Shown here piece by piece: positions 171-58,085 of a stretch of DNA of 64,000 bases. Source of the DNA: Oscillospiraceae bacterium (GTDB taxonomy: Bacteria > Bacillota > Clostridia > Oscillospirales > Acutalibacteraceae); contig SVPR01000004.1 in NCBI GenBank assembly GCA_015065785.1, positions 1-64,000 on the forward strand, given 5' to 3'. Within the stretch, counting starts at the first letter, position 1. Each line of letters starts with the position of its first letter. Below the pieces are notes generated by a model that had not been told where the DNA came from, ran no database searches, and saw only the letters and a list, made by a program, of their open reading frames with translations. The position numbers were made by a program, and so were the translations under genes.

Positions 171-274
171 ATTATTCATTCTTCAATATTCATCATTCAT
201 TATTCTTTTGTGAAGAACGGATTTTCAATGAATAATGAATAATGAAATCGCTTTCGCTGATGAATGATGAATAA
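171..274. repeat. Heptanucleotide palindromic island 1
   Basis: The left part is five consecutive 7-mers (ATTATTC, ATTCTTC, AATATTC, ATCATTC, ATTATTC). The right part carries complementary units (AATGAAT twice, GATGAAT twice), so the whole can fold back on itself. A mini-hairpin (ATCGC-TTTC-GCTGAT) sits between the right-hand runs. The island fills the gap between the tRNA terminator and the terminator of the next gene. The same units recur at 57508-57612. Confidence 0.75.
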
Positions 275-5739: not shown

Positions 5740-5743
5740 ATTC

Positions 5744-5896
5744 AGAAAACAGGAAGCAGGAAACAGAAAACAGAGCTTCGCAAAAAACAAATTCACCTAT
5801 CATTTAAAGTTGGTCAAGTAATCAACTAAAAATGATAGGTGTTTTATTTTCAACTGTTTTCTGTTTTCTGTTTTCTGTTTCCTGCTTCCTGTTTTC
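5744..5896. repeat. Heptanucleotide palindromic island 2
   Basis: The left arm is AGAAAAC, AGGAAGC, AGGAAAC, AGAAAAC in tandem. The right arm is CTGTTTT three times, then CTGTTTC, CTGCTTC, CTGTTTT, the reverse complement of the left arm. Between them lies an inner inverted repeat (5794-5841). The island fills the gap between two convergent genes, and its right arm runs into the stop codon (TAG) of the next gene. Confidence 0.85.
5794..5841. terminator. Core hairpin of island 2, probable bidirectional terminator
   Basis: CACCTATCATTT pairs perfectly with AAATGATAGGTG, with a further AGTTG/CAACT stem inside, followed on the plus strand by TTTTATTTT. The same CTATCATTT/AAATGATAG core lies at the centre of the islands near 18.2 and 21.5 kb. 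It sits between convergent genes, so it can end transcripts from both sides. Confidence 0.65.
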
Positions 5897-18085: not shown

Positions 18086-18501
18086 ATTGAAAGTTGAAAA
18101 TTGAAAATTGAAAATTTCGGAAGTCCTGCGGACTTGATTATATTTAATTGAATAAAAACAACTAAGTTCTATCATTTGTACCAGTGGTCAGTGAGTCAGT
18201 GGTCAGGAAACAGGAAATAGGAATCAGTGAACAGAAAAAGTTCTATCATTTGGGGTTTACAAAAAACTTTAAATGATAGAACTTAACTTTTTGTTATTTA
18301 ATTATAATTGCCAACGCAGTTCCGAAATTTTTAATTTTTCATTTTTAACTTTTAATTATAATTGCGTCGCAGACCCACAATTCCGAATTACGCATTACGA
18401 ATTCCGAATTATAATTGCCGACCGCAGGTCCCACAATTTTCAATTTTCAACTTTCAATTTTCAATTATAATTACAGGCGTAGCCCTTTTATTCTGCATTT
18501 T
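18086..18501. repeat. Heptanucleotide palindromic island 3 (largest)
   Basis: About 415 bases without a gene, made almost wholly of 7-mer runs. In order: TTGAAAG/TTGAAAA units ending TTTCGG; a mini-hairpin AAGTCC-TGC-GGACTT; CAGTGGT/CAGGAAA units; the core TTCTATCATTT...AAATGATAGAA (18241-18281); TTTTTAA/TTTTTCA units; AATTCCG/AATTACG/CATTACG units; then CAATTTT/CAACTTT units complementary to the first run. Mini-hairpins (GACC-GCA-GGTC and TGCGTCGCA) punctuate the runs. It ends next to the pit stop codon. Confidence 0.85.
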
Positions 18502-19557
18502 TTAAAACATTTTCATAAACATTTTCGTCATTACAAACCCTATAAGTCCGCATCCGGGAAATGTTAAAACCCAGGTTACTGCCATTTCTTTGACTACTGA
18601 AAAGTTGATGCTTGACATTCTTCTTACTGCACCAACACCCATAATCGCAGTTGTTTTTGCGTGAGTGGTTGAAACAGGGATTCCAAAAAACGAGCTTATT
18701 AAAAGCGAAACGGACGCGGCAAGGTCTGCTGAAAAGCCCTGATATTTTTCTAATTTCACCATATCCATTCCTACAGATTTTATAATTTTTTTACCGCCGA
18801 TTGATGTGCCAAGCCCCATTACTATTGAGCAAAGAGCCATTAGCCAGACAGGCATTTTTACACTGACATATTCAGCACTCTGACCGTTAATTAAAAGAAT
18901 ACTAAGAAGAATAACGCCCATAAACTTCTGCCCATCCTGAGCGCCGTGCATAAAGCTCATTGCCGCCGCACCGCCAATCTGAGCAAATTTGAAGAAGCTC
19001 TCAGTTTTGCTTCTTCTGATATTTCTGAAAATCGTAACAACAATTCTGCAAATTATAAAACCTAAAATGAAGCCCAACAATACAGATATTAAAAGTCCAT
19101 AAATAACCTTTATCCATTCTGTACCGTTTACACCCTGAAGTCCTCCGTGTAGTGCAATTGCACCGCCTGTAAGTCCTGCAATCAACGCGTGACTTTCACT
19201 TGTAGGAATACCAAAAATCCACGCTAAAATTGCCCAGAGCACAATAGCAAAAAGCGCCGCACTCAAAGCCACTATTGCCTCGTGCGAATTTGTTCCGAAA
19301 TCGACCATTTTAGTAATTGTTTCAGCAACAGTTGCATTAACAAGGCTCATTATAAATACACCAAAAAAATTAAAAACTGCCGCCATTAAAATAGCCACTC
19401 TCGGTGAAAGACAACGAGTTACAACGCAGGTTGCAATAGCATTTGGTGCATCTGTCCAACCGTTGACAAGAATAACACCTAAGGTCAGCACTACCGCCAT
19501 TAAAAGAAGCGGATTCGCCATCATCTGTTCCCAGAAATATGTAAAAGACAAATCCAT
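18502..19557 (-). CDS. pit: Low-affinity inorganic phosphate transporter (Pit family)
   Basis: 351-aa membrane protein with about ten spans. The Pit/PiT signature appears near the N-terminus as GWTDAPNAIAT (usual form GxNDxANA) and again in the C-terminal half as PVSTTHAKTTAIMGVG, the inverted repeat of the fold. Pit proteins import metal-phosphate complexes using proton or sodium gradients. No phoU-like gene adjoins, although Pit and a PhoU-like partner are often paired. It stands alone, flanked by a repeat island downstream. Confidence 0.9.
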   Translation of the reverse strand: MDLSFTYFWEQMMANPLLLMAVVLTLGVILVNGWTDAPNAIATCVVTRCLSPRVAILMAAVFNFFGVFIMSLVNATVAETITKMVDFGTNSHEAIVALSAALFAIVLWAILAWIFGIPTSESHALIAGLTGGAIALHGGLQGVNGTEWIKVIYGLLISVLLGFILGFIICRIVVTIFRNIRRSKTESFFKFAQIGGAAAMSFMHGAQDGQKFMGVILLSILLINGQSAEYVSVKMPVWLMALCSIVMGLGTSIGGKKIIKSVGMDMVKLEKYQGFSADLAASVSLLISSFFGIPVSTTHAKTTAIMGVGAVRRMSSINFSVVKEMAVTWVLTFPGCGLIGFVMTKMFMKMF

Positions 19558-21295: not shown

Positions 21296-21638
21296 CAGGA
21301 AACAGGAAACAGGAAGCAGGAAGCAGGAGTTCGCTACGCGAACATTGAAAATTGAAAATTGAAAATTTCGGGGCTACGCCGTAATTATAATAATTGGCTA
21401 TAGCGGTAAATTGACTTTTTCATTTATACTAATTACAAATATTAAGATTTTAATATAAAAATTCTATCATTTTTAGTTTATATCAAACTTCAAATGATAG
21501 AATTTCTTGTTTTTATGGATAACTATTACAATCGCCGACCGCAGGTCCCACAATTTTCAATTTTCCATTTTCCATTTTCAATTATAATTGCGTCGCAGAC
21601 CCTTAATTCTGCATTCTGCACTCTGCATTCTGCATTTC
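21296..21638. repeat. Heptanucleotide palindromic island 4
   Basis: CAGGAAA/CAGGAAG units, mini-hairpin GTTCGC-TAC-GCGAAC, three TTGAAAA units ending TTTCGG, mini-hairpin GGC-TAC-GCC, the core TTCTATCATTT...AAATGATAGAA (21461-21502), then CAATTTT/CCATTTT units complementary to the TTGAAAA run. Last come ATTCTGC/ACTCTGC units that end exactly at the glpK stop codon. Module order closely parallels island 3, including the shared segment CGCCGACCGCAGGTCCCACA. The core hairpin may serve as the glpK terminator. Confidence 0.85.
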
Positions 21639-57479: not shown

Positions 57480-57507
57480 ATAAAGATTGTTCGTAAGATG
57501 TGACTTC

Positions 57508-57612
57508 ATTATTCATTATTCATCAGCGAGTTTACGAGCGACTTCATCATTCATTATTCATTGAAAATCCGTTCTTTTAATGAATAGTGAATAATGAATA
57601 TTGAATAATGAA
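57508..57612. repeat. Heptanucleotide palindromic island 5
   Basis: TTCATTA, TTCATTA, TTCATCA; a short GC-rich insert with GCGAG...CGAGCG; TTCATCA, TTCATTA, TTCATTG; then AATGAAT, AGTGAAT, AATGAAT, ATTGAAT, AATGAAT, complementary to the first runs. It shares its units with island 1 and, like it, adjoins a tRNA terminator, here of tRNA-Ala. Two islands of the same sequence family beside two tRNA terminators may be meaningful. Confidence 0.8.
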
Positions 57613-57618
57613 TAATAC

Positions 57619-57737: not shown

Positions 57738-57778
57738 GTTTGAAGTAAGAAGTAACAGTGAAGAGTGAAGAGGTGAGC
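57738..57778. repeat. Short heptamer run beside tRNA-Ala
   Basis: GAAGTAA, GAAGTAA, CAGTGAA, GAGTGAA, GAGGTGA: five consecutive 7-mers with varying bases, without a complementary partner in the gap. The period is the same as in the larger islands. Confidence 0.6.
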
Positions 57779-57865: not shown

Positions 57866-58043
57866 AATGAAATATTTTGCTGAAGCAAAATATGAAATAA
57901 TTATCTACGATAATTGTGAAATTTTCTGCTTACGCAGAAAGTGAAATAAAATTCGCCATCAACATTTACGAAGTAAATATTTCACTGCGAAGCAATTTCA
58001 CATTACTAAGTAATATTTCACTCGCCGCAAGGCGAATTTCATT
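57866..58043. repeat. Array of mini-hairpins separated by GTGAAAT/ATTTCAC heptamers
   Basis: Seven small hairpins in 178 bp, for example ATATTTTGC-TGAA-GCAAAATAT, TTTCTGC-TTAC-GCAGAAA, ATTTAC-GAA-GTAAAT, ATTAC-TAA-GTAAT and TCGCC-GCAA-GGCGA, with stems that differ completely. Left of the centre the separator is GTGAAAT (57916, 57941). Right of it the separator is ATTTCAC (57979, 57995, 58015, then ATTTCAT 58036), so the orientation inverts. The ends AATGAAAT and ATTTCATT are themselves inverted. It lies between two minus-strand tRNAs. Function unknown. Confidence 0.75.
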
Positions 58044-58048
58044 GCACC

Positions 58049-58085
58049 AACAAAAAGGCACCGCCAAAGCGATGCCTTTTTGTTG
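58049..58085 (-). terminator. Terminator of tRNA-Leu
   Basis: AACAAAAAGGCA...TGCCTTTTTTGTT hairpin with an inner CGC/GCG stem. On the minus strand it follows the CCA end of tRNA-Leu directly. Confidence 0.85.

Follow-up and report, generated by a model that had tools for sequence, protein, structure and literature searches.

Heptamer arrays and mini-hairpins form regular modules in the intergenic islands of an Oscillospiraceae genome

Why the tandem repeats of bacteria prefer a unit of 7 bp is a question that has stood since at least 2007, when slippage governed by the footprint of the polymerase was proposed as the origin of the 7-nt step, as quoted in PMC4692102 and PMC4679880. The window studied here, the whole 64-kb stretch of bases 1–64000 of contig C11 in an Oscillospiraceae genome of 2.24 Mb (37 contigs, 83.6% complete), raises the question again. 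Its islands between genes are built from many different heptamers in mirrored runs, and the first-pass annotation took them as the mark of a copying mechanism with a 7-nt step rather than of one mobile sequence.

Our sample of this genome (G000) was the window and 20 further stretches, together 437 kb; the 20 were partly picked for an AATTACG array, so densities in the sample are not genome averages, the contrast between lags being unaffected. To these we added stretches of congeneric relatives and, from a pattern scan, 117 stretches belonging to named genomes. In five islands of the window the identity at lag 7 was 0.402, as compared to 0.261–0.313 at lags 5, 6, 8 and 9, and the signal was absent from the other gaps (0.302) and the genes (0.264) of the window. 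A simple run score on the 437 kb gave 90 intergenic runs at lag 7, covering 3.0 kb, as compared to one at lag 6, two at lag 8 and none at lag 9 or at any of the lags 2–5. Each of the lags 2–6 and 8–13 gave 0, 1 or 2 intergenic runs, lags 14 and 21 being harmonics, and the excess over neighbouring periods that the first-pass annotation expected is clearly present. Coding sequences of the 437 kb held only 6 lag-7 runs, 50 kb of E. coli K-12 held 0, and a search of the whole genome for approximate AATTACG triplets found 54, as compared to 5 for the reversed control.

Direct reading of the named sites showed the period-7 arrays in the islands first listed, the one at 57738–57778 being marginal, with only 2.3 copies of AGTGAAG at 57757–57772. 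The mirroring also proved real, with 25 inverted and only 3 direct pairs among arrays of the same family at most 350 bp apart. As 13 of the 22 genomes of the genus have related islands, they are not an assembly artefact of one genome. The period of seven is thus real and exclusive, across unrelated units. At one heptamer site of this genome (L005:17735–17926) the orthologs in two relatives (L055, L057) are CTAG-based repeats with steps of 7 and 9, which shows that the period is not always 7.

At the centre of an island lies a terminator-like hairpin, (AAGT)TCTATCATTT...AAATGATAGA(ACTT) or a relative of it, A-rich before and T-rich after (0.63 on each side), with a mean RNA folding energy of -19.3 kcal/mol. 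Of 41 such cores, 36 had an array no more than 300 bp away. From the core outward, the arm on either side carries one to three modules, in which the hairpin is always the core-proximal part, and the outermost layer often consists of CAGGAAA or AATAATG arms without standard modules (Table 1). Simple islands have only the core and mirrored arms, as at 5743–5891 in the window and at the orthologous glpK sites L030–L032. To the left of the complete core in island A, the stretch between the two half-stem copies looks like an array inserted into the core or duplicating it. The islands lie mostly just past gene ends and avoid divergent promoters: 26 were found between convergent, 21 between tandem and 4 between divergent genes, as compared to 39, 99 and 39 for all gaps. 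No known RNA families were found on the two main islands of the window.

Table 1. Repeat features read in the islands of the window
Feature	Position	Strand	Basis
Island A left arm, heptamer array TTGAAAA/AAAATTG	18087..18116	.	
Mini-hairpin AAGTCC-GCA-GGACTT	18121..18135	- (outward strand = minus)	read directly and motif class
Half-stem AAGTTCTATCATTTG, then CAGTGGT/CAGGAAA heptamers, up to the second half-stem copy, which starts the complete core	18168..18238	.	read directly
Core, terminator-like hairpin AAGTTCTATCATTT...AAATGATAGAACTT, A-rich 5' and T-rich 3' flank	18238..18284	.	
Mini-hairpin AAC-GCA-GTT, then CCGAA	18313..18321	+	
Heptamer array AATTTTT	18326..18358	+	
Mini-hairpin GTC-GCA-GAC	18366..18374	+	
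32-bp array AATTCCG AATTACG CATTACG AATTCCG AATT	18379..18410	+	
Mini-hairpin GACC-GCA-GGTC	18420..18430	+	
Array AATTTTC AATTTTC AACTTTC AATTTTC AATT	18434..18466	+	
Mini-hairpin GGC-GTA-GCC, then vestigial ATTCTGC unit reaching the stop codon of the phosphate-transporter-like gene (18502–19557)	18476..18484	+	
Island B outer left arm, CAGGAAA array	21296..21328	.	
Mini-hairpin GTTCGC-GTA-GCGAAC	21329..21343	-	
Array TTGAAAA	21340..21367	.	
Mini-hairpin GGC-GTA-GCC	21372..21380	-	
Core hairpin, type-B element	21459..21505	.	
Mini-hairpin GACC-GCA-GGTC	21537..21547	+	
Array CAATTTT	21551..21583	+	
Mini-hairpin GTC-GCA-GAC	21592..21600	+	
Array ATTCTGC ATTCTGC ACTCTGC ATTCTGC ATT, ending at the glpK stop codon (21639)	21606..21636	+	
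Simple island without modules: CAGAAAA arm 5743–5774, core hairpin 5794–5841, mirrored CTGTTTT arm 5854–5891	5743..5891	.	
AATAATG-family mirrored arms directly after terminator-like hairpin CCGTTCT...GAACGG	171..272	.	
AATAATG-family arms adjoining tRNA gene	57505..57616	.	

The modules keep a strict order: ATTATAAT, 0–5 nt, a mini-hairpin, CC(GAA/CAC), that is CCGAA or CCCAC, and a heptamer array of about 32 bp. On this pattern 95 modules were found, with an array length mode of 32 bp (66 of the 95 between 30 and 34), and where modules adjoin their pitch is 53–61 bp. The stems of the mini-hairpins vary (GTC-GCA-GAC, AAC-GCA-GTT, GACC-GCA-GGTC, AAGTCC-GCA-GGACTT, GGC-GTA-GCC, AAGGC-GAA-GCCTT and others), but the loop, read outward from the centre, is always GNA closed by C-G, C(GNA)G. 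A loop-agnostic search returned 34 GCA, 15 GTA and 8 GAA loops, and part of the remaining ones (GTC, CAAC) are the same hairpin in a shifted register. Loops of d(GNA) make very stable DNA mini-hairpins.

At a lower threshold 139 arrays were catalogued in the 437 kb, and the majority fall into about eight unit families. In outward orientation the units met most often are CAATTTT, ATTCTGC, AATTCCG, CAGGAAA, AATTTTT and ACTCAGC. The length was 30–34 bp, four units and about four bases, in 89 of 133 arrays, and 74 of the 139 have an exact 28-mer in common with another array. Where there is a single change it sits in one unit, nearly always the third, as in AATTTTC AATTTTC AACTTTC AATTTTC AATT and in ATTCTGC ATTCTGC ACTCTGC ATTCTGC ATTCT. 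The deviant unit was central in 32 of 39 single-deviant arrays, when simulated detection bias gives about a quarter. Each main hairpin type pairs with several array types, which implies that hairpin and array recombine, and a block of about 243 bp with inverted arrays at its ends (21340–21583) is found again, with 87–95% identity, at about a dozen further places in the genome, which implies that whole blocks are being copied. Most arrays are thus copied modules of about 32 bp and not freshly slipped DNA; entire modules are copied from one site to another, with recombination between the types of hairpin and the types of array.

The contrast drawn at the outset, a step rather than a mobile sequence, is therefore only half right. 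The 7-nt step is supported by the exclusive period and by whole-unit differences between orthologous arrays, but it is an existing hypothesis and not a new one. The denial of a mobile sequence fails, because the arrays are copies of a few fixed modules of about 32 bp, with a shared deviant third unit and a mini-hairpin attached; both processes act.

Slippage could also be the whole explanation, if a polymerase with a footprint of 7 nt lengthens heptamers that arose by chance, wherever selection permits, and each array comes about independently. This is the published hypothesis in the form quoted in PMC4692102 and PMC4679880, and the exclusive period fits it. Arrays do gain or lose units, the orthologous arrays of L008 and L053 differing by about one and two whole units, and in the CAGGAAA-type arms the unit number varies, up to about 18 units, which is also what slippage would give, as is the smooth fall of array lengths in cyanobacteria. 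The module arrays, on the other hand, are fixed near 32 bp, attached to hairpins, and share both exact 28-mers and the same central deviant unit, and array lengths outside the cyanobacteria peak at four units and do not fall. As the only process, local slippage appears improbable.

Of the 22 genomes of the genus 13 have the exact module TATAATNGCGTCGCAGACC, as compared to 0 of 96 outside it; the specific modules are confined to one genus. At orthologous sites in the stretches of the relatives the gene neighbours persist and the content of the island differs. For instance, L005:4869–5415 holds about 18 AGGAAAC units and two modules, and G018 and G001 have only short AGGAA-type arms and the core. 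The joints at both main islands of the window are missing in close relatives: where the contigs are long enough, recJ and the phosphate-transporter gene (island A) are on different contigs there, and so are glpK and its left neighbour (island B). In three stretches, 5 of 11 junctions with islands were broken in G001 and 5 of 11 in G018, as compared to 0 of 24 (p=0.0014) and 1 of 23 (p=0.008) without islands. Inversion accounts for nine of these ten broken island junctions and a shift to another contig for the tenth. The two islands of the L008 inversion have a 31-bp module in common, in inverted orientation, and the order of G000 recurs in G021 against that of G001 and G018, which means that the inversion is seen in independent assemblies. 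At the other two of the three inversions it is G000 that differs from the compared relatives, and a misassembly of G000 is possible there; the islands at L012 share only 15 bp in inverted orientation. The islands thus turn over fast while their sites persist, and they coincide with gene-order breaks. Near glpK and rearrangement joints, relatives also carry repeat islands with a period of about 100 bp and CCCGAAGCGTACAAAGATACGCGAG- or CTGTATAAAGATACTGCGAG-like units (L030–L033, L059, L058).

An explanation to the copying can be that the islands are nested miniature inverted-repeat transposons, in which the hairpin-plus-heptamer arms would serve as terminal repeats for a transposase acting in trans. 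The 243-bp block with its inverted array bounds agrees with this, and so do the prevalence of inverted arms and the comparison of L008:13617–14033 with G021, where the outer layers match and the inner layer and the core differ. In the loci read, however, neither a target-site duplication, a clean empty site nor a parent element was seen, and our search of the RVT_1 and Y1 families, DDE transposases being outside it, found no mobilising enzyme. The one Y1 transposase gene in G000 sits amid unrelated GGGGACGG repeats. Y1 genes do not track the modules, being absent in the module-rich G001 and G021 and present in the module-free G012 and G020 (several genomes are incomplete), and a RAYT link to the islands was rejected since the presence of Y1 is uncorrelated with modules. 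On balance we find the transposon explanation rather unlikely. The Y1 gene region itself (L004 4490–6000, G000:C9) has a duplicated segment upstream of the gene and tandem repeats downstream, carrying GGGGACGGTTC and CTGTCTTA units.

A constant unit length with a variable sequence would also fit a short repeating template, such as a telomerase-like reverse transcriptase writing heptamers from RNA templates would use, but RVT_1 (PF00078) had no match in G000 (84% complete) or in the module-rich G018 (97% complete), G007 (95%), G001, G014 and G021, and at the sensitivity of PF00078 this source is largely refuted for the genus and very improbable. The family is thus missing from most, though not all, of the module-rich relatives, and its presence does not track the islands. 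That four-unit arrays are kept by G-quadruplex folding, as proposed for Xanthomonas and Nostoc, where the preference for four units and the inverted pairs were reported (PMC4692102), is refuted for these AT-rich arrays and has practically no chance of being right, since GGG or CCC occurs in 0 of the 89 arrays of 30–34 bp here and in 5 of 43 in the cross-phylum set.

As whole blocks are copied and target duplications, empty sites and a parent element were not seen in the loci read, we favour template switching or recombination between the islands, combined with one-unit slippage in the arrays that adjoin hairpins. From its sequence, the core may function as a two-way transcription terminator that tethers the islands to gene ends. 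The mini-hairpins, when the DNA is single-stranded, could stall or mark the replicating strand. Such stalling or marking would allow template switching between islands, by which modules would be copied and, between inverted islands, the segment inverted, and also slippage by one heptamer in the adjoining array. A DNA or protein footprint of fixed size may then hold the arrays near 32 bp. The favoured mechanism does not explain the step of 7. We incline cautiously to the joint account, mechanism included, which treats the islands as mosaic elements of intergenic DNA, of much the same kind as BIMEs.

Heptamer arrays are not limited to this genus. In a pattern scan of 264 billion bases the 21-mer AATTMCGAATTACGMATTACG was found in more than 117 stretches, when chance, estimated from base counts, would give it about once or less. 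Its hosts are Cyanobacteria, Bacteroidota, Ignavibacteria, Acidobacteriota, Planctomycetota, Verrucomicrobiota, Chloroflexota, Clostridia (including Ruminococcus flavefaciens), Vibrio, Treponema and candidate phyla, and the AATTACG unit recurs in Clostridia, Bacteroidota, Cyanobacteria, Acidobacteriota, Planctomycetota, Verrucomicrobiota, Chloroflexota and others. Once the arrays of the search itself had been masked, the AATTMCGAATTACGMATTACG stretches still held 96 runs at lag 7 as compared to 10 at lags 8 and 9. The lengths of the other arrays outside the cyanobacteria peak at 30–32 bp, with 39 arrays as compared to 11 and 9 in the neighbouring 3-bp bins, in a set that is biased to heptamer-bearing genomes and in which three-unit arrays are more easily missed when they carry several changes. 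After removal of repeats within loci the peak still held 34 arrays, from 29 loci and at least six phyla. In the cyanobacterial sample there was no length peak, and this difference separates two regimes.

The peak in AT-rich arrays argues against quadruplexes as a general explanation, and it fits free slippage no better; the four-unit quadruplex account given for Xanthomonas (PMC4692102) cannot be the general one, because the arrays are AT-rich. In Chitinophaga a hairpin is flanked by inverted 31-bp arrays, which is the plan of the simple islands here. It is possible, though we hold it only tentatively, that heptamer arrays are a general object of bacterial DNA with a preferred length of about 32 bp, often in inverted pairs round a hairpin at gene ends, and that this is dictated by a conserved footprint, of replication or of DNA binding, with no part played by the sequence of the unit, by quadruplexes or by free slippage. 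If a fixed footprint underlies the length of about 32 bp, it should be biochemically identifiable.

Other traits of the modules are less general. A central deviant unit was dropped as a rule across phyla, 11 of 34 elsewhere being about the level of detection bias, as compared to the 32 of 39 in this genome. GNA mini-hairpins were about 2-fold denser near arrays in other phyla, each hairpin being counted once per strand, which makes Fisher p-values from these counts unreliable, and the link between arrays and GNA hairpins outside the genus is weak. A module-like ATAATC...GCGAAGC...CCCGAA stands ahead of an array of 31 bp in a further clostridial genome (L178), and Ruminococcus flavefaciens (L155) has an array of 32 bp next to a C(GAA)G hairpin; these arrangements suggest that the module order may extend beyond the genus.

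For the old question of the 7-bp preference the genus is a tractable case: its modules are strictly ordered and numerous, close relatives show that change is fast, and gene order is broken more often at islands than elsewhere. Islands also have a bearing on genome assembly and on what is claimed as non-coding RNA, as part of one hairpin chain in the window is matched by at least one Rfam family (Gut-1). At 57866–58050 at least six short hairpins are chained, mostly by the 7-nt linker GTGAAAT/ATTTCAC, and the end of the chain (57974–58044, minus strand) is the Gut-1 match, at 69.1 bits. It may be that the Gut-1 family represents one segment of a repeat chain of this sort. The linker is clustered in a similar way at L049:5003–5155, and the hairpin chain of L035 has the linker ATATCGC.

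Among known systems, the REP/BIME elements of proteobacteria, including REPIN-RAYT, are similar in that short palindromes are inverted and combined with other motifs, limited to a genus and present in many copies (PMC3733652, PMC3116915). They are dispersed, downstream of genes or between convergent genes and rarely between divergent ones, as are the islands here. By definition they are palindromes of 20–40 bp with a GTAG or CGTC end tag, but our mini-hairpins are flanked by ATTATAAT(NN) and CC(GAA/CAC), with no constant GTAG or CGTC tag across hairpin types. The islands also differ in their shorter stems (mostly 3–6 bp), in having heptamer arrays as partners and in the central terminator-like hairpin, and, unlike in REPIN-RAYT, no RAYT tracks the elements in these partly incomplete genomes, the single Y1_Tnp gene having unrelated flanking repeats. 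Of the traits of a MITE, inverted arms are present; target duplications and a parent were not seen in the loci read, DDE families being outside the search. In the stretches that were read, no genes of integrons (integrase, with attC) or of CRISPR (cas, with conserved repeats and unique spacers) came to notice.

The comparison with cyanobacterial heptanucleotide repeats that was made at first sight is apt. The arrays are tandem 7-bp intergenic units like STRRs, and with the system of STRRs and small dispersed repeats (SDR; Elhai et al. 2008, cited in PMC3116915) they share the period, the many unit families, the mosaic islands and apparently also small hairpin elements inside heptamers. The SDR are reported to be hairpin elements of 21–27 nt set within heptamers or minitransposons. 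In the islands here, segments with hairpins and of about that size separate the heptamer arrays, a likeness at the level of description; the unit and hairpin sequences are different, the arrays are fixed at 32 bp and the order is strict. The GGGAATC heptamers of Xanthomonas (PMC4692102) have the same preference for four units, close inverted pairs, few copies between divergent genes, and mostly the same gene pairs with a content that varies between species; they differ in being G-rich and assigned to G-quadruplexes, and mini-hairpin modules were not described for them. The TAACTGA repeats of Beggiatoaceae (PMC4679880) are likewise intergenic, occur also in unrelated phyla and are mixed with other heptamers in some genomes, but they have one unit, in short sets, mostly upstream of start codons. 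The islands are thus of a known kind, mosaic intergenic repeats and heptamer repeats, in a new and unusually regular form.
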